Shown here one piece after another: positions 244 through 4,864 of a stretch of 22,458 nt of DNA. The DNA lies in the IMG/VR virus record IMGVR_UViG_3300023184_000559, positions 1 through 22,458 of that record. One strand, given 5' to 3'. Numbering within the stretch: the first letter of the stretch is position 1; each line of letters opens with the position of its first letter. Made by a program: the position numbers and the translations under genes. The DNA is from a virus. The notes under the pieces are model-generated. The model did no database searches. It was not told where the DNA came from and was given only the letters and a program-made list of their open reading frames with translations.

Positions 244-269
244 AATGATTCTCCTGAGATAAAACAAAT

Positions 270-297
270 CTCACGTTGCCGTGAGGTCTTAAGTAGG
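270..297 (-). promoter_or_regulatory. Leader element copy 1 (TCACG-N4-CGTGA inverted repeat plus conserved flank)
   Basis: A 28-bp element lies in the leader between the promoter at 330-358 and the gene starting at 243. It contains CTCACG-TTGC-CGTGAG and then a GTCTTAAGTAGG-type flank (plus strand). It matches copies at 1868-1895 (23 of 28 by eye) and 2528-2555. It begins 33 bp downstream of the -10 box, almost as in copy 2. It could act as an RNA hairpin or as a DNA operator. Confidence 0.7.
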
Positions 298-329
298 GTC
301 GCTCTAAGGTTGCTTCCCGACTTACAATA

Positions 330-358
330 AGTATAACACAACTTGACATACTAGTCAA
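330..358 (-). promoter_or_regulatory. Sigma70-type promoter overlapped by a palindrome
   Basis: On the minus strand there is a -35 box TTGACT (353-358), a 17-bp spacer and a -10 box TATACT (330-335). The -35 box sits inside a perfect inverted repeat CTTGAC-N6-GTCAAG (342-359), which looks like a repressor or activator site that would compete with RNA polymerase. The predicted start is near 323. It would drive the gene that begins at 243. Confidence 0.75.
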
Positions 359-376
359 GCACTTCAACTAACTTTC

Positions 377-580
377 TTATTCATGGGCGTACTTGTTCAA
401 TCCTTTCAATAAGGTTAGGTCAGTCACTAGGATGTAGTTGGACTTAGCCATAGGCACGATAGTCCTCGTAGGCGTAGCCATCTCAGTCTCGGCACAGGGG
501 ATGCAGTGCTTGTAACCAAGAGCCCACCGAGCCGTGGGGTACTGTTCGTCGCAGAGTCGGCAATGGGGTATGTGATTCAT
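377..580 (-). CDS. Small zinc-ribbon-like phage protein
   Basis: A 67-residue protein with two Cys pairs, CRLC at residues 8-11 and CIPC at about 26-29, flanking a conserved-looking ARWALGYKH stretch. This spacing fits a small zinc-binding ribbon. The C-terminal half (VPMAKSNYILVTD) reads like a short beta-rich segment. Similar small CxxC-GYK-CxxC proteins occur in many environmental phages without known function (from memory, not searched). Its ATG overlaps the stop of the gene upstream by ATGA, so it is translationally coupled and is the last gene of the leftward operon that begins at 1842. No intrinsic terminator is visible after it. Confidence 0.75.
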   Translation of the reverse strand: MNHIPHCRLCDEQYPTARWALGYKHCIPCAETEMATPTRTIVPMAKSNYILVTDLTLLKGLNKYAHE

Positions 581-891
581 TCGTCAGTCTCCTGAGTGAG
601 TTGTTTTAGGTCGTTATAAATAAGCCATAGTTTGTGACCCTCATCACGCATGTCATCAGTCCCACCATGCAGTCGGGTAAAGATGTTCTTCATCTTGGGT
701 AGGTAGTGGTCACGCACTTCTTCCTCTATGGCTTTCATGTTGTCGTACTGCTTCCATGCTTCACACACAGGGCAACCATCCTCGTGGTCAGGGCAACGCG
801 CACCCCAATAGAACAGAACGGCTTCGTGCACAGGGTTGTTATCCACTGCGGTGTTTGGATTGATTTCTAGGTCATGGTTGTGTGTCATCAT
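577..891 (-). CDS. Hypothetical acidic protein, 104 aa
   Basis: Starts ATG-ATG at 891/888 with GGAG five bases upstream. The protein is acidic and has a CPDHEDGCPVCEAW segment at about residues 33-46 with three Cys and one His that could bind a metal. A long helical region follows (DNMKAIEEEVRDHYLPKMKNIF) and then a second helix near the C-terminus. It overlaps the upstream membrane-protein gene by 20 bp and the downstream gene by ATGA, so it belongs to the operon. No function is recognised. Confidence 0.75.
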   Translation of the reverse strand: MMTHNHDLEINPNTAVDNNPVHEAVLFYWGARCPDHEDGCPVCEAWKQYDNMKAIEEEVRDHYLPKMKNIFTRLHGGTDDMRDEGHKLWLIYNDLKQLTQETDE

Positions 892-1063
892 GGTCTCCGT
901 TCATATACACAGTTATCAGGTAGCCAATGTTTGCGCCAGCCCACACCAAGCCAGCTTGGAATAGCCAGCCTTCTCTGTCCCAACAGGTGAACAGGAATAT
1001 GGTAGCAAGCACGGCGATGCCGATGTCGGCAAGGGTTTGTGGTTTAGTTGTTACGTAGTTCAT
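872..1063 (-). CDS. Small two-helix membrane protein, 63 aa
   Basis: I chose the ATG at 1063 because GAGGAAAT lies just upstream; a longer frame starting at 1114 would overlap the preceding gene and has no ribosome site. The protein has two likely membrane helices, about residues 11-28 (DIGIAVLATIFLFTCW) and 33-54 (WLFQAGLVWAGANIGYLI), and an acidic, hydrophilic tail ending in GDHDDTQP. Two helices and small size would also fit a holin or a superinfection-exclusion protein, but the position in a leftward, probably early operon away from lysis genes does not favour holin. Function unknown. Confidence 0.7.
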   Translation of the reverse strand: MNYVTTKPQTLADIGIAVLATIFLFTCWDREGWLFQAGLVWAGANIGYLITVYMNGDHDDTQP

Positions 1064-1065
1064 GA

Positions 1066-1248
1066 TTATTTCCTCAGTAGGTAGGTGATGTCGTACCCAA
1101 GCGTCTCGATGCACCTTAGAACGCGCTTAGTCAGGGTCGTGGTTCCTGCAATGGCGGCAAACCGCAAGGCATCGTCGCATATGGGGTAGACCTTCTCCGT
1201 GCCGTATACGTCACGGACTTGGACTGTTATTTGTTTGGTTGATGTCAT
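1066..1248 (-). CDS. Hypothetical protein, 60 aa
   Basis: The start at ATG 1248 is preferred: GAGG lies about ten bases upstream, and an in-frame extension to 1365 would run deep into the preceding gene. The protein begins TSTKQITVQVRDVYG, a beta-rich segment, followed by a helical half ending in a hydrophobic GYDITYLLRK. Its stop lies two bases before the start of the membrane-protein gene, so the two are tightly linked. I recall similar short proteins in environmental phages, all without function. Confidence 0.7.
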   Translation of the reverse strand: MTSTKQITVQVRDVYGTEKVYPICDDALRFAAIAGTTTLTKRVLRCIETLGYDITYLLRK

Positions 1249-1276
1249 AGTTAATACCTCATGTGAAGGTGAATGC

Positions 1277-1492
1277 TTAATCAGTGGATAGAGCGACTTC
1301 GGTGATTGCATACACCACCTTGTCGTCCATGTGCGCCTCGGCTTGCTTGCATAGCCACATCTCATAGTCAGCAGTTGCTTTATTCAAGTAAGCGTTGCAG
1401 GGTCTGCCGTTGCACGTAAGCACGTAGACAGTCGGTACGTCGTCGGACTGTGCGTCCATTTCCTCAAGATACAGTTGTTTCATAACACCCAT
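1277..1492 (-). CDS. Hypothetical protein, 71 aa
   Basis: Starts at ATG 1492 with AGGAG six bases upstream; a second in-frame ATG at 1483 is possible but has a poorer site. The sequence has a short beta segment (TVYVLTCNGRPCNAYL) with two Cys, then a helix with many Ala and Glu. No domain is recognised. It is the second gene of the operon driven by the 1929-1957 promoter, 20 bp after the first. Confidence 0.7.
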   Translation of the reverse strand: MGVMKQLYLEEMDAQSDDVPTVYVLTCNGRPCNAYLNKATADYEMWLCKQAEAHMDDKVVYAITEVALSTD

Positions 1493-1512
1493 GATGTTCT
1501 CCTAGTTAATGT

Positions 1513-1842
1513 TTAAATGATGTCGTAGCCAGTGCAGAAGCTCCAGAGGGATACCTCGTTGTCTGGCTCGTGGATGGTCAGTGTGGCAAACTCGTCGTCG
1601 ATGTCTTGGAACTCGTCGAAGTCGTAAGCGCGGTCTAAGAACTCAAGGTTCTGTGTGTGGTACGTGTCGGTGCGGTACTCAGTCTGCATATAGCACACCA
1701 CGTCGTCGTGAGATGCTACATTGGACGACGCATTGCGCCGCGCCACGGGACGATATGCCTTACGGATAGAACGTGGCATCTTGGCAAGCCATGCGGTTGC
1801 ATCAGCGTGCTGCTCAGGGGACATAGATATAAACGATAGCAT
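1513..1842 (-). CDS. Hypothetical protein, 109 aa, first gene of the leftward operon
   Basis: ATG at 1842 is the likely start, because AAAGGAG lies five bases upstream. An in-frame GTG at 1872 falls inside the leader inverted repeat and lacks a ribosome site. The N-terminal third is basic and helical (RSIRKAYRPVARR at about residues 24-36). The C-terminal two thirds are acidic (DRAYDFDEFQDIDDEFATL). No known domain. The gene lies about 80 bases downstream of the predicted transcription start and behind leader element copy 2, so its expression probably depends on whatever acts there. Confidence 0.7.
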   Translation of the reverse strand: MLSFISMSPEQHADATAWLAKMPRSIRKAYRPVARRNASSNVASHDDVVCYMQTEYRTDTYHTQNLEFLDRAYDFDEFQDIDDEFATLTIHEPDNEVSLWSFCTGYDII

Positions 1843-1867
1843 GTGAACTCCTTTCGGGGGTATAGGC

Positions 1868-1895
1868 CTCACGTGTCCGTGAGGTGTTAGTTAGG
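1868..1895 (-). promoter_or_regulatory. Leader element copy 2
   Basis: The second copy of the 28-bp element lies in the leader of the six-gene operon. The core CCTCACG-TGTC-CGTGAGG (1867-1884) can form a 7-bp stem with a 4-base loop in the transcript. The conserved flank GTGTTAGTTAGG follows on the plus strand. Its edge lies 34 bp from the -10 box, against 33 bp for copy 1. Confidence 0.7.
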
Positions 1896-1928
1896 ACGAG
1901 ACGCAGACTGCATCCCTTCCTAAGCTCC

Positions 1929-1957
1929 ATTATAAGGGAGAATGACTTTTATGTCAA
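1929..1957 (-). promoter_or_regulatory. Perfect-consensus sigma70 promoter
   Basis: On the minus strand TTGACA (1952-1957), a spacer of exactly 17 bp and TATAAT (1929-1934) match the bacterial housekeeping consensus at all twelve positions. The predicted start is near 1922, and it drives the genes from 1842 leftward. Such strength fits an early phage promoter used by host RNA polymerase on entry. Confidence 0.88.
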
Positions 1958-2022
1958 GTCTATATTTACATTAGTTAGGGCTGAGGACTGAGCAGTATGC
2001 GGCAGTTGCCCTGCGTGGAGGC

Positions 2023-2049
2023 TTGTTCTACTTGTTCTATTTGTTCTAC
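2023..2049. repeat. Tandem 9-bp repeat TTGTTCTAY x3, with scattered copies to 2400
   Basis: Three exact head-to-tail units: TTGTTCTAC, TTGTTCTAT, TTGTTCTAC. The same motif recurs as GTTCTAC at 2161-2167 and 2335-2341, and inverted as GTAGAAC at 2283-2289 and 2388-2394, with degenerate GAACAA forms between. The clustering in 380 bp suggests binding sites for one protein. Confidence 0.75.
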
Positions 2050-2095
2050 TTTTGGAACTTGACTTATAGAACGTGTTTTTGAAAAGGGGTGCTTT

Positions 2096-2323
2096 GTAAG
2101 TTGTTGATTTATATAGCCTTTTTTAATAAAATAGTTATAAATATAATAAGATGTTCCGATGTTCTACGAAATTTAGGGGGTATACGGTCTTATCCGGTCT
2201 TTTTTACTTTTGTATGCGGACTTGCTGCTAAAAGGTCTTAACGAGAAAAACGTGCAAAAATCTCCCCTATACCTGAAAAAACGTAGAACATTAGAACAAA
2301 ACCACGTAAGTTGTTGATTTATA
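2096..2323. repeat. Pair of 18-bp direct repeats (2096-2113 and 2306-2323)
   Basis: GTAAGTTGTTGATTTATA occurs twice, unchanged, 210 bp apart, with one copy at each side of the TTGTTCTAC-rich interval. They lie outside any gene. Confidence 0.8.
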
Positions 2324-2408
2324 AGGCAAATTCTGTTCTACGGGGTATAAAAAAGCGGAACAAAAAAGGCCTAAAACAGAACGAAAAGTAGAACAAAACG
2401 CACTTGGC

Positions 2409-2583
2409 TATCATTTAATCTTTGCGTAACTGAAGTTTGGCACTTTTTGGCCTATCATTTAATCTTTGCGTAACTGACGCAGCCCATATTTCACCTACAT
2501 CATTTAATCTTTGCGTAAATGATACATCTCACGTGTGCGTGAAGTCTTAATTAAGCCTCATCATTTAATCTTTGCGTAACTCA
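2409..2583. repeat. Four iteron-like direct repeats
   Basis: The 19-bp core TCATTTAATCTTTGCGTAA occurs without mismatch at 2411, 2455, 2500 and 2561, all in the same orientation, spaced 44, 45 and 61 bp. Copies 1 and 2 are identical over a longer 25 bp. The larger last gap holds copy 3 of the leader element. Spacers differ in sequence, so these are discrete binding sites rather than a CRISPR array. Iterons for a replication protein, or operators of a regulator, are the likely roles. Confidence 0.8.
2528..2555 (-). promoter_or_regulatory. Leader element copy 3, inside the iteron array
   Basis: A third 28-bp copy has the same TCACG-TGTG-CGTGA core and a GTCTTAATTAAG flank. The outermost stem pair seen in copies 1 and 2 is lost here. 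No good promoter is found at the equivalent upstream distance and no gene follows directly, so this copy may be a DNA site rather than a messenger leader. Confidence 0.6.
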
Positions 2584-2617
2584 CACGCCATACAACGCCC
2601 ACTCACGCGCGCGCACT

Positions 2618-2654
2618 AAAATAACTGGTTTCAAAACGCTGGGCGCAAAAAAAA
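2618..2654 (-). repeat. Post-terminator tail repeat, copy 1
   Basis: A segment beginning AAAATAACTGG, continuing TCAAAACG and ending GGCGCAAAAAAA. It is nearly the same as 3476-3511 (about 32 of 36 positions by eye). Each copy runs directly into the T-tract of an intrinsic terminator, marking the end of a single-gene cassette. Confidence 0.75.
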
Positions 2655-2682
2655 CCCGCATGGCCTCTCGACCATGCGGGTT
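2645..2682 (-). terminator. Intrinsic terminator of the 2696-3334 gene
   Basis: On the minus strand an 11-bp perfect stem AACCCGCATGG / CCATGCGGGTT (2672-2682 with 2653-2663) with an 8-base loop is followed by a run of eight T. It begins 14 bases after the stop codon. Confidence 0.9.
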
Positions 2683-2695
2683 AACCCTGACTTAA

Positions 2696-3334
2696 TTATT
2701 TCTTATTGTATGCTGTCCAGAAAGCATCCTTTGCCATGCGGAACTGAACATTGTTCGCAGTACTGTCGCCCTTACCTTGCTTGACCTTGACAGATTTTTC
2801 TAGGGCATCGAATACCTTAGTCACCGACTGCACAAAGTCCAGCGTAGTGCGAGTGTGTGATTGTCCAGCACCTAGAATTTTCTTAGCGGCTCTTTTCAAG
2901 TCGCCAAGTCGATTCGAACAATATACTTGAACTGTATCGCGCACCTTAGCGATTAGCGCGTGTTTTTCCGGCTCAGTATTTTTCAGCTTGCCAAATTCCT
3001 GACTAGTCAGGGAAAAAGCAAAATCTAATCCCACGTCGATTTTCTCGACCGACTTATTTGCAACATGCTCGGGCGTGGCCTTAACATAGTGCCCGTTTAT
3101 CACGGCATACTGTACCGCCGGATGTGTTTCATTCCAGCGCTTTTTATAACCCGAATACAGTTCCGATTTTGCTTCGTCTGAAATATCTTCAGGGAAACCC
3201 GCAATGTTGTCCAGCGCATATTGCGCCTGACTAGTCAGCGAATCAGACGTCTGCGCTTGCTTGTATCCAAGGTCAGCGATGCTGGAAAATGTCAGGGTTT
3301 CGCCTGACAGGGTAGTTGTGGCAGATTTTGCCAT
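2696..3334 (-). CDS. Conserved phage protein of unknown function, 212 aa
   Basis: ATG at 3334 is chosen because GGAGAT lies upstream at normal spacing; the in-frame extension to 3379 would cover a leader hairpin. The N-terminus (MAKSATTTLSGETLTF) is polar. The rest is mostly helical and rich in Lys, Glu and Ala, with a basic helix near residue 150 (RLGDLKRAAKKIL). The C-terminus ends NVQFRMAKDAFWTAYNKK. I recall close relatives in environmental phages, all hypothetical. The gene stands alone with its own promoter, leader hairpin and strong terminator, which points to high or specially timed expression. A DNA-binding role is possible but only a guess from its basic helices and the origin-like region next to it. 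Confidence 0.82.
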   Translation of the reverse strand: MAKSATTTLSGETLTFSSIADLGYKQAQTSDSLTSQAQYALDNIAGFPEDISDEAKSELYSGYKKRWNETHPAVQYAVINGHYVKATPEHVANKSVEKIDVGLDFAFSLTSQEFGKLKNTEPEKHALIAKVRDTVQVYCSNRLGDLKRAAKKILGAGQSHTRTTLDFVQSVTKVFDALEKSVKVKQGKGDSTANNVQFRMAKDAFWTAYNKK

Positions 3335-3361
3335 GGTGATATCTCCAAAAGGATTAAAAAA

Positions 3362-3387
3362 TTGTCGGTGCAAAATCACATCGACAA
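3362..3387 (-). promoter_or_regulatory. 5'-leader hairpin of the 2696-3334 gene
   Basis: TTGTCG (3362-3367) pairs with CGACAA (3382-3387), and GTG (3368-3370) pairs with CAC (3377-3379) across a two-base bulge. It lies at the predicted 5' end of the transcript, like the hairpin in the neighbouring cassette. Such hairpins often protect messages from decay. Confidence 0.5.
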
Positions 3388-3391
3388 ATAG

Positions 3392-3436
3392 ATAATGACA
3401 TAATGGCCGTCATAAGTAAAGTATCACGTGGGGATG
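3392..3436 (-). promoter_or_regulatory. Cassette promoter A with conserved upstream block
   Basis: Minus strand: -35-like TTTACT (3415-3420), 17 bp, -10-like CATTAT (3392-3397). A block at 3412-3436 (ATAAGTAAAGT ... CGTGGGGATG on the plus strand) matches 4093-4117 at 22 of 25 positions. The predicted start is near 3385, about 50 bases before the gene. Confidence 0.65.
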
Positions 3437-3475
3437 AAACGCTATTTAGGCCACGCACGCATGGCGCGCCCGACC

Positions 3476-3511
3476 AAAAATAACTGGCATCAAAACGTAG
3501 GCGCAAAAAAA
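3476..3511 (-). repeat. Post-terminator tail repeat, copy 2
   Basis: The second copy of the 36-bp segment found at 2618-2654, again joined to the T-tract of a terminator. Its position between two single-gene units supports a duplicated cassette. Confidence 0.75.
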
Positions 3512-3530
3512 CGGGGCCGAAGCCCCGTTT
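3504..3530 (-). terminator. Intrinsic terminator of the 3544-4014 gene
   Basis: A 9-bp perfect stem AAACGGGGC / GCCCCGTTT (3509-3517 with 3522-3530) has a four-base loop, with a run of seven T after it on the minus strand. It lies 13 bases after the stop of the leftward gene. Confidence 0.88.
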
Positions 3531-3543
3531 TCTAGTTAGTGCA

Positions 3544-4014
3544 TCAATCGCACTGAATTGCATATTCTTTGATAGTCTCGGCTCTCTCACCGATTACAAC
3601 TTTCCGGCATGTCTGACTATCATTCTTAACATACACATCGAACGATATTGCAGTGCCGTCTTCATATCTGTAGTGAAACGTGCGGTTGATTGCACTAGGA
3701 TACTCAGACACTGATTGCTTAGTGATTGGCTTCCAATTCTCCAATGCCCATAAGCGTGCAGACACTTCATTGCACTTAAATCCCTCAACGTCGTACATGT
3801 ACAACCGCACGGTAATACGGTCCGCATAATCGTTGTAATCCAGACTGACACTGTTGTTCTTAGTGTCATCAAACGCTACAAGCTTAAGCAGTGGAGTCAG
3901 TGCGCGTCGTGCGCGTTTGATAGCATCGCGTTCTATACGTGCGCGTCGTGCGCGCGATTGCATCTCTTTTGTATGGGTTTCGAAGATAGCGGAAACGGCT
4001 TTTGATGTTGCCAT
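3544..4014 (-). CDS. Hypothetical protein with a very basic N-terminal helix, 156 aa
   Basis: Starts ATG at 4014 after AAAGGA. Residues 15-45 form an Arg-rich segment (RARRARIERDAIKRARRALT) in which the RARRA unit appears twice, encoded by a 16-bp repeated GTGCGCGTCGTGCGCG. The remainder (about 50-150) looks beta-rich with aromatic residues, for example ITVRLYMYDVEGF and FDVYVKN. A nucleic-acid-binding tail joined to a globular domain is a fair description, but no family is recognised. It is the first single-gene cassette left of the divergence point and has its own promoter, hairpin and terminator. Confidence 0.8.
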   Translation of the reverse strand: MATSKAVSAIFETHTKEMQSRARRARIERDAIKRARRALTPLLKLVAFDDTKNNSVSLDYNDYADRITVRLYMYDVEGFKCNEVSARLWALENWKPITKQSVSEYPSAINRTFHYRYEDGTAISFDVYVKNDSQTCRKVVIGERAETIKEYAIQCD

Positions 4015-4041
4015 GGTATTGTCCTTTCAAGACGGTTTTGT

Positions 4042-4066
4042 ATGCACTGCAACCACTGCAATGCAT
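4042..4066 (-). promoter_or_regulatory. 5'-end hairpin of the 3544-4014 transcript
   Basis: 4042-4051 pairs with 4057-4066, giving a 10-bp stem with a five-base loop. The single mismatch in DNA becomes a G-U pair in the minus-strand RNA. The predicted start (near 4066) is the base of the stem, so the message would begin with the hairpin. Confidence 0.6.
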
Positions 4067-4072
4067 GAATAC

Positions 4073-4117
4073 ATAGTGGCATAAAACCATGTATAAGTAA
4101 AGTTTGGCGTGGGGATG
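4073..4117 (-). promoter_or_regulatory. Cassette promoter B with conserved upstream block
   Basis: Minus strand: TTTACT (4096-4101), 17 bp, CACTAT (4073-4078), with the same 25-bp block as promoter A (4093-4117). The shared bases extend beyond the -35 box into CATCCCCACG, which points to an activator site or a phage-specific promoter. Confidence 0.65.
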
Positions 4118-4130
4118 GGCCACTCCCCAC
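4109..4130. repeat. Inverted repeat GTGGGGA-N8-TCCCCAC
   Basis: Perfect 7-bp arms (4109-4115 and 4124-4130). The left arm is part of the conserved block of promoter B, so a bound protein would affect the leftward cassette and might also affect the rightward operon. The rest of the divergent spacer (4131-4250) holds two 7-C tracts (4130-4136 and 4211-4217) and no gene. Confidence 0.6.
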
Positions 4131-4250
4131 CCCCCCAAACGGCTCGCGGGTCCCATCCGGTCCCCCATACCCTTAGACTTACACAAATAACCTCGCTCAT
4201 TTCCAAAACACCCCCCCGTCACTAAAACAAAACCCCATGTAAAAAAATTT

Positions 4251-4280
4251 TTTACAAAAAATTCTGGAAAGTGCTATATA
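4251..4280 (+). promoter_or_regulatory. Extended -10 promoter of the structural operon
   Basis: TTTACA (4251-4256), 18 bp, TATATA (4275-4280), with TGC directly before the -10, which fits the extended -10 pattern. Transcription would begin near 4287, only about two bases before the ATG at 4289. Confidence 0.6.
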
Positions 4281-4288
4281 CTGCCGCC

Positions 4289-4864
4289 ATGACATCTCCA
4301 TTAGTGCCAACTATTGAGGAGAACATTCCTCTACCAGACAATGCTAAAGACGCATTTCCTGAGCTTTCACCAGCACAGGAACTAGAGATGCGCGCCAATG
4401 TAATTAAGTTAATGTCAGACTTAACAGGCGATCCAATAGCTCCCACCAAAGACAATGCGGAGCAGGCAAAGCAGATAGCTAAGGACATGATTAATGATCC
4501 TAAGCACAGACCTGATTTTGCTCAATACCCCAATGAGACCCTTGCATATCTAGCAGGCATGGTTGCCCAGATGAACATATCTATAGTCGATGAGCTATCA
4601 GACTTGAAGATGTATGTAGTTAATAAGCTGGTGCAAGAGGTAGAAACTGCTCGGGACTCCAAAGTTCGTATTGCAGCACTAGGAAAACTAGGCGAAGTAG
4701 ATGGAGTCGATGCCTTTAAGAAGCGCAGCGAAGTTACACACAAGGTACAAACCCTTGAAGAGGTCGAGAAAGAACTTCTTGAGACCCTTGGTGTACTAGA
4801 GAACAAAGCTATAGACGTAGAAGCTAGGGAAATTGTTAGGTTAGAGGCTCAAGATAGTGAGTGA
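4289..4864 (+). CDS. Probable small terminase subunit, 191 aa
   Basis: This gene lies directly before the large terminase and overlaps it by 8 bp, the usual place of the small subunit, which recognises viral DNA for packaging. The protein is acidic and mostly helical. The N-terminus is proline-rich (PLVPTIEENIPLP). There is a central helical core (LAYLAGMVAQMNISIVDELSDL, about residues 80-104) and a coiled-coil-like C-terminal helix (VQTLEEVEKELLETL, about 155-170). No clear helix-turn-helix is visible, so the role rests on position and general character. ATG 4289 has no ribosome site at normal distance; an in-frame GTG at 4271 is embedded in the promoter. A leaderless message starting at or near 4289 is the likely explanation. 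Confidence 0.65.
   Translation: MTSPLVPTIEENIPLPDNAKDAFPELSPAQELEMRANVIKLMSDLTGDPIAPTKDNAEQAKQIAKDMINDPKHRPDFAQYPNETLAYLAGMVAQMNISIVDELSDLKMYVVNKLVQEVETARDSKVRIAALGKLGEVDGVDAFKKRSEVTHKVQTLEEVEKELLETLGVLENKAIDVEAREIVRLEAQDSE

Follow-up and report, generated by a model that had tools for sequence, protein, structure and literature searches.

We analysed a 22,458-nucleotide stretch of viral DNA (IMG/VR record IMGVR_UViG_3300023184_000559, positions 1 to 22,458; the window), in which a 28-bp element built on the palindrome TCACG-N4-CGTGA recurs in the leaders of two leftward early operons and elsewhere. Comparison with related phages suggests that this element is probably a DNA site for a phage DNA-binding protein, and not primarily an RNA element, and that it would most likely serve to throttle early transcription. 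The phage is an uncultured member of a widespread freshwater group with genomes of ~60 kb; its terminase is 87-98% identical to those of the 80 IMG/VR relatives that we kept.

As the original prediction stated, three exact copies of the palindrome with a common flank are present, at 271-284, 1869-1882 and 2529-2542, and a repeat search recovered the same 28-bp family unprompted (repeat D2). Allowing one mismatch gave 5 matches against 0.47 expected, a number that 0 of 100 shuffles reached. All three copies read leftward on the minus strand. Site 1 (269..295; scan score 28.0) consists of the palindrome CCTCACG-GCAA-CGTGAGA at 269-286 and the 5' flank TACTTAAGA at 287-295, and lies in the leader of the DUF3150-type operon; site 2 (1867..1893; scan score 29.2) consists of CCTCACG-GACA-CGTGAGG at 1867-1884 and the flank TAACTAACA at 1885-1893, and lies in the leader of the second leftward operon. 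Homologous leaders occur in relatives for both. Each site follows a strong leftward sigma70 promoter, TTGACT-17-TATACT at 330..358 (minus strand; 10/12 consensus bases, with TG before the -10 box) and TTGACA-17-TATAAT at 1929..1957 (minus strand; 12/12). The near-constant distance between the -10 box and the 28-mer also stood, with recounted gaps of 32 bp for copy 1 and 33 bp for copy 2 in place of the predicted 33 and 34. Site 3 (2527..2553; scan score 27.6) has the palindrome CTTCACG-CACA-CGTGAGA at 2527-2544 and the flank TAATTAAGA at 2545-2553. It does have a broken outer pair, which reads C-A on the plus strand and T-G on the minus strand, where it would be a wobble pair in an RNA, and does lie within the array of four iterons at 2398-2586. 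Site 3 is not anomalous, judging from its homologues: it belongs to a class (class 2) found in most relatives, in which flank and palindrome recur downstream of intrinsic terminators, a conserved motif TTTGATACCAGTTATTT and GC-rich (GCGCGCG-rich) sequence.

Scanning revealed three further sites, where the best null score in 10 shuffled windows was 17.6. Site 4 (minus strand, 3413..3448; scan score 18.7) is a class-2 site with a degenerate left arm, TTTCATC-CCCA-CGTGATA at 3422-3439, flanked by TAAATAGCG at 3440-3448 and by the mirror flank CTTTACTTA at 3413-3421; it lies just upstream of a sigma70-like promoter, and relatives are arranged alike. Site 5 (plus strand, 1248..1274; scan score 18.2) is a weak intergenic site, CCTCATG-TGAA-GGTGAAT at 1257-1274 with the flank TAGTTAATA, and its counterpart in L005 (494-511) has arms nearer to L005's own. 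Site 6 (plus strand, 1687..1713; scan score 22.5), CACCACG-TCGT-CGTGAGA at 1696-1713 with flanks on both sides, lies inside the leftward gene 1513-1872 and is partly due to the protein code, with 11 of 300 synonymous shuffles scoring as high.

The relatives keep the same two leftward promoters, and in 48 of 51 leaders the centre of the palindrome lies 51-54 nt past the -10 box. TAATTAG-like bases precede the palindrome throughout. A covariance model found sites in most relatives, with strong matches on the leftward strand. A full record has some 6 to 15 sites, and almost all of them fall within the first ~12 kb of leftward early genes. In five long records (G001-G004 and G009), searched on either strand, high-scoring sites were confined to the early leftward region (null maxima mostly 11-18, one 20). 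They occur in leaders, in class-2 units, upstream of promoters, beside iterons, between genes and inside genes.

The spelling of the arms is particular to the phage lineage. Leader arms include CCCACG, TTCCACG, ATCTGTC, TTCCGTC, TCCATC, CCAGC and CTCACG among others, and within one phage the same spelling recurs at dispersed positions: in G002 seven exact palindromes have TCTGTC arms and none has any of the seven other arms tried, in G004 five have TCCGTC arms and none the other arms, and L161 has three TTCGGG sites. None of 2000 permutations reached the arm similarity seen within phages, and the same held when each arm type was represented by a single phage. The CCCACG type is common to many phages by descent, and the independent evidence comes from the rarer arm types.

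The original prediction held that identical arms bar a covariation test. This applies inside the window and not across relatives, whose arms differ: all seven pairs of the hairpin into which the palindrome would fold (H2) change on both sides. By itself this pattern would suit an RNA stem and the site of a dimeric protein equally. Other observations discriminate between the two. In G002 a perfect site with a perfect flank (24748, plus strand) occupies the antisense strand of the leftward DUF3310 gene and has no promoter ahead of it; G004 carries its own version of the site in the homologous DUF3310 linker. In the linker of the VWA gene, each phage's own arms score a mean of 12.5 against 6.7 for the arms of other phages, while the encoded linker differs. 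None of 300 synonymous shuffles reached the observed score for the DUF3310 and VWA genes (each in G002 and G004) or for one G009 gene, so several sites inside genes are kept beyond what the protein code explains. Outside the leaders and class-2 units orientation is mixed: the better flank is on the 5' side of the transcript in 18 of 32 in-gene sites and in 11 of 23 intergenic sites, a count in which the four intergenic sites of L161, scanned in the opposite orientation, were wrongly entered as 3'-flanked. In 9 of 29 class-2 sites the flank is present on both sides, against a pass rate of 1.7% for a random flank. The 127 arm-matched sites show no preference for wobble pairs, with 51 G-U against 77 A-C mismatches; a first wobble count was biased because the hairpin finder demanded pairing. 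Weighed together, these comparisons favour DNA over RNA, because of the antisense in-gene site, the selection inside genes, the either-side and double flanks and the lack of a wobble preference.

Several points weigh against this reading. In leaders and class-2 sites the flank is on the 5' side of the transcript in 45 of 48 cases, the arrangement that an RNA would require. At some sites both arms have changed at the same position (a count biased by the same demand of the finder, and in which L005, with its 5-nt spacer, was misframed). The L161 miscount belongs here as well, as does a conserved second hairpin (H1) in the leaders, which would make the whole leader a structured RNA. The DNA-binding protein is putative. 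No sign was found of lysogeny, the classical reason for dispersed operators: a Phage_integrase search of 7 records of 51-65 kb found no match, with control genomes positive in 14/14 cases.

In the mechanism that we infer, each half-site would combine the common outer flank TAATTAGYG with a lineage-specific 7-bp arm, and two half-sites in opposing orientation would be separated by a spacer, usually of 4 bp, often with only one flank well kept. Such sites would be read by a DNA-binding protein that the phage itself encodes and that probably acts as a dimer. At the two strong early promoters it would sit at about +38 to +55 and stop RNA polymerase shortly after initiation. At the remaining sites, which lie ahead of other promoters, in and between early genes and by the iterons, its binding would dampen early transcription and read-through across the first ~12 kb. 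Site occupancy might perhaps also coordinate early transcription with replication and mark the origin region. Because neither an integrase nor a ParB_N protein was found, lysogenic repression is less likely than a shut-off of early genes by a lytic phage; the ParB_N search gave 0 matches in the 7 records (controls positive in 10/14 genomes), other centromere proteins being outside this search.

The original prediction offered three roles: a cis-acting antitermination RNA such as the put sites of phage HK022, a messenger-stabilising hairpin, or an operator for a downstream-binding repressor. A downstream-binding regulator fits best, given sites that are dispersed, upstream of promoters, in genes in both orientations, sometimes double-flanked and of one spelling per phage. 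The RNA options are weakened. In the leader, H1, a single-stranded UAAUUAG and H2 might act together on the polymerase like HK022 put, or H2 might be bound by a protein as boxB is by N, with antitermination, processing or translational control as the outcome. In the relatives that were folded, the leaders do form two hairpins at the predicted 5' end (transcript starts being those implied by the promoters). In the window, H1 is predicted at 292..322 for transcript 1, where it is weak (minus strand; z -0.6 for H1 alone), and at 1892..1922 for transcript 2 (minus strand; z -4.7 for H1 alone). Of 50 leaders, 41 have the outer stem of H1 and 35 the inner stem, and many show a GA-rich 3 x 3 internal loop (GGA/AAG). 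H1 covaries: in a swap test across the family, its strands paired better with their own partners than with swapped ones (13.4 against 10.4, standard deviation 0.38, 0/5000), a result inflated by the kinship of the leaders, among which several different stem sequences nonetheless occur. The two-sided changes in H2 and the flank orientation in leaders and class-2 sites agree with an RNA too. Such an element would not explain H2-type sites that lie antisense inside genes or directly upstream of promoters. Hairpin loops are not conserved across leaders, pairing shows no wobble preference and the leader RNA with H1 has no Rfam match above the gathering threshold; for antitermination, position and shape are the sole positive evidence. 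We regard an RNA role for the element as unlikely, if deserving of some weight. As H1 is missing at non-leader sites, we treat it as an RNA feature separate from the dispersed sites, possibly one that protects the 5' end of the transcript.

Simple hairpins, alike through recent duplication and serving to stabilise the 5' ends of messengers or to stop read-through, would account for H1 and H2 at the predicted transcript ends. They would not account for lineage-specific arms and a flank common to non-leader sites whose loops and surroundings differ; since arms and flank are shared beyond the leaders, pairing alone or recent duplication is insufficient, and we consider this explanation very improbable. 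The position of site 3 and its homologues beside iterons, and the clustering of sites to one side of the origin, over about 12 kb, would instead suit sites for replication, partition or DNA organisation around the origin, with any effect on transcription secondary. The most constant placement relates to the two promoters and not to the iterons, and the 7 records gave no ParB_N match, which leaves such a function improbable. A broader proposal, which goes beyond an operator role and which we advance as a speculation with the chances against it, is an immunity-like specificity system in phages without signs of lysogeny. The regulator and its dispersed sites, some kept in genes beyond the protein code, would change spelling together between lineages, and the leader palindrome would be read in two ways, as a DNA site and, within a structured RNA, as its second hairpin.

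The preferred reading, a set of operators, invites comparison with known dispersed sites. The stoperators of L5 and other cluster A mycobacteriophages are 13-bp, asymmetric, monomer-bound sites of a repressor that halts elongation when bound, 20-30 over the genomes of temperate phages, some at promoters and most elsewhere; their spelling is common within one phage and differs between phages, and they tend to follow the direction of transcription (PMC6550527, PMC9283540). The sites described here are likewise multiple, dispersed and of one spelling per phage that differs between phages. Unlike stoperators, they have a palindromic core with 7-bp arms, some are double-flanked, there are about 6-15 of them, in the early region, and the 7 records yielded no integrase. 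Orientation follows transcription in the 45 of 48 leader and class-2 sites and is mixed between and inside genes. Because the sites are not asymmetric, we do not class them with the L5 stoperators. What we rate as new is that these putative dispersed operators are palindromic, lineage-specific and partly in genes, in phages without signs of lysogeny. The C1 repressor of the temperate phage P1 also has operators dispersed over the phage genome. The likeness is one of arrangement alone; P1 operators are asymmetric, in contrast to the palindromes here, and P1 is temperate.

HK022 put RNA forms two stem-loops in about 60-70 nt just after the early promoter, occurs in two copies per genome, and brings about terminator read-through in cis without a phage protein, via the beta-prime zinc-binding domain (PMC9378689). 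Two predicted stem-loops also open the early transcripts here, a likeness of leader shape and place only. H2 differs from put in being one of many dispersed sites with lineage-specific arms, and H2 with its flank is not confined to early transcripts, since it occurs upstream of promoters and antisense in genes; this concerns H2 and not H1. In lambda nut sites, where boxA precedes boxB and the partner is the arginine-rich protein N, the boxB hairpin arms are alike within a phage, different between phages and placed downstream of early promoters. Lineage-specific arms downstream of early promoters are found here as well, whereas loops vary freely and further copies are found antisense within genes and ahead of promoters. 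No boxA-like sequence was noticed by eye in the leaders. No ParB-family protein of the kind that a ParB-parS system has was found in the 7 records (0/7 with ParB_N).

Dispersed operators with phage-specific spelling are familiar from temperate phages. If the sites are operators, annotation has missed a regulatory network because they are short and spelled differently in each lineage, and, since these phages show no signs of lysogeny, one may ask what drives the specificity, for example early-gene shut-off or competition between co-infecting phages. Comparison of the arms across many genomes makes it possible to look for the cognate protein through covariation.

Several early proteins were considered as readers, two fast-evolving ones of 307 and 325 aa among them. 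A 106-aa helix-turn-helix (HTH) protein was rejected, its recognition helix being identical in G008 (CCAGC arms) and G020 (CTCACG arms). The HTH-DUF3310 protein is a candidate only: its model has a three-helix N-terminal domain (predicted local distance difference test, pLDDT, 81-88; overall predicted template modelling score low, 0.34) that weakly matches KorA and other HTH regulators (best E 1.4), and its helix does not track the arms cleanly, as G001 differs. A 212-aa family tied to class-2 units, often as tandem paralogues, may be a reader. In the window this protein is encoded at 2696..3334 (minus strand), and 118 distinct relatives occur in the loci examined. The family matches no PHROG, has no convincing counterpart among PDB sequences and belongs to no known family; its structural model is confident (pLDDT 88.8) yet gave no clear fold match (best VIA-align Z 4.9, root-mean-square deviation 4.2, 84 residues aligned). 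Its genes always stand beside class-2 units and iterons.

The class-2 motif occurs twice in the window on the minus strand (repeat D3), as TTTTGAAACCAGTTATTTT at 2618..2636, upstream of site 3 and downstream of the terminator 2682-2653, and as TTTTGATGCCAGTTATTTTT at 3476..3495, upstream of site 4. Its strict form is present in 71 IMG/VR contigs, and it resembles an unrecognised type of promoter or a protein site. A single-subunit phage RNA polymerase (PF00940), as user of the CCAGTTAT motif, was found in none of 11 records, where the control was empty too, so that absence is not shown. A comparison of the class-2 motif with a bacterial and archaeal genome collection gave no match and hence no host. 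The sigma70-like promoter directly after site 4, read from the sequence as TTTACT-17-CATTAT at 3392..3420 (minus strand), precedes the gene 2696-3334. The four iterons at 2398..2586 (no strand; repeat D1) are arranged around TCATTTAATCTTTGCGTAA, are conserved in L005 and probably mark a replication origin. Iterons at this place vary between phages, with TCATTTAATCTTTGCGTAA here and CGCCTACCGTTTTCAGAACTGA in others (for example L060, 6300-6400).

A BLASTN comparison of the window with cultured phages found nothing, and the terminase is ~50% identical to those of cultured HTVC023P-type pelagiphages and phage DSL-LC04. In most relatives the class-1 promoters carry a TTGAC-N6-GTCAA dyad that spans the -35 box and the spacer; it is complete in promoter 1 and partial in promoter 2, and may be a second operator. 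In L015 the first leftward operon (1201-4847) encodes a DUF3150-like protein (a weak match below the cut-off), a second protein without a Pfam match whose G002 relative gives a weak AAA match, and a DUF2201 VWA-like protein, an ensemble that resembles a MoxR-VWA-like module.

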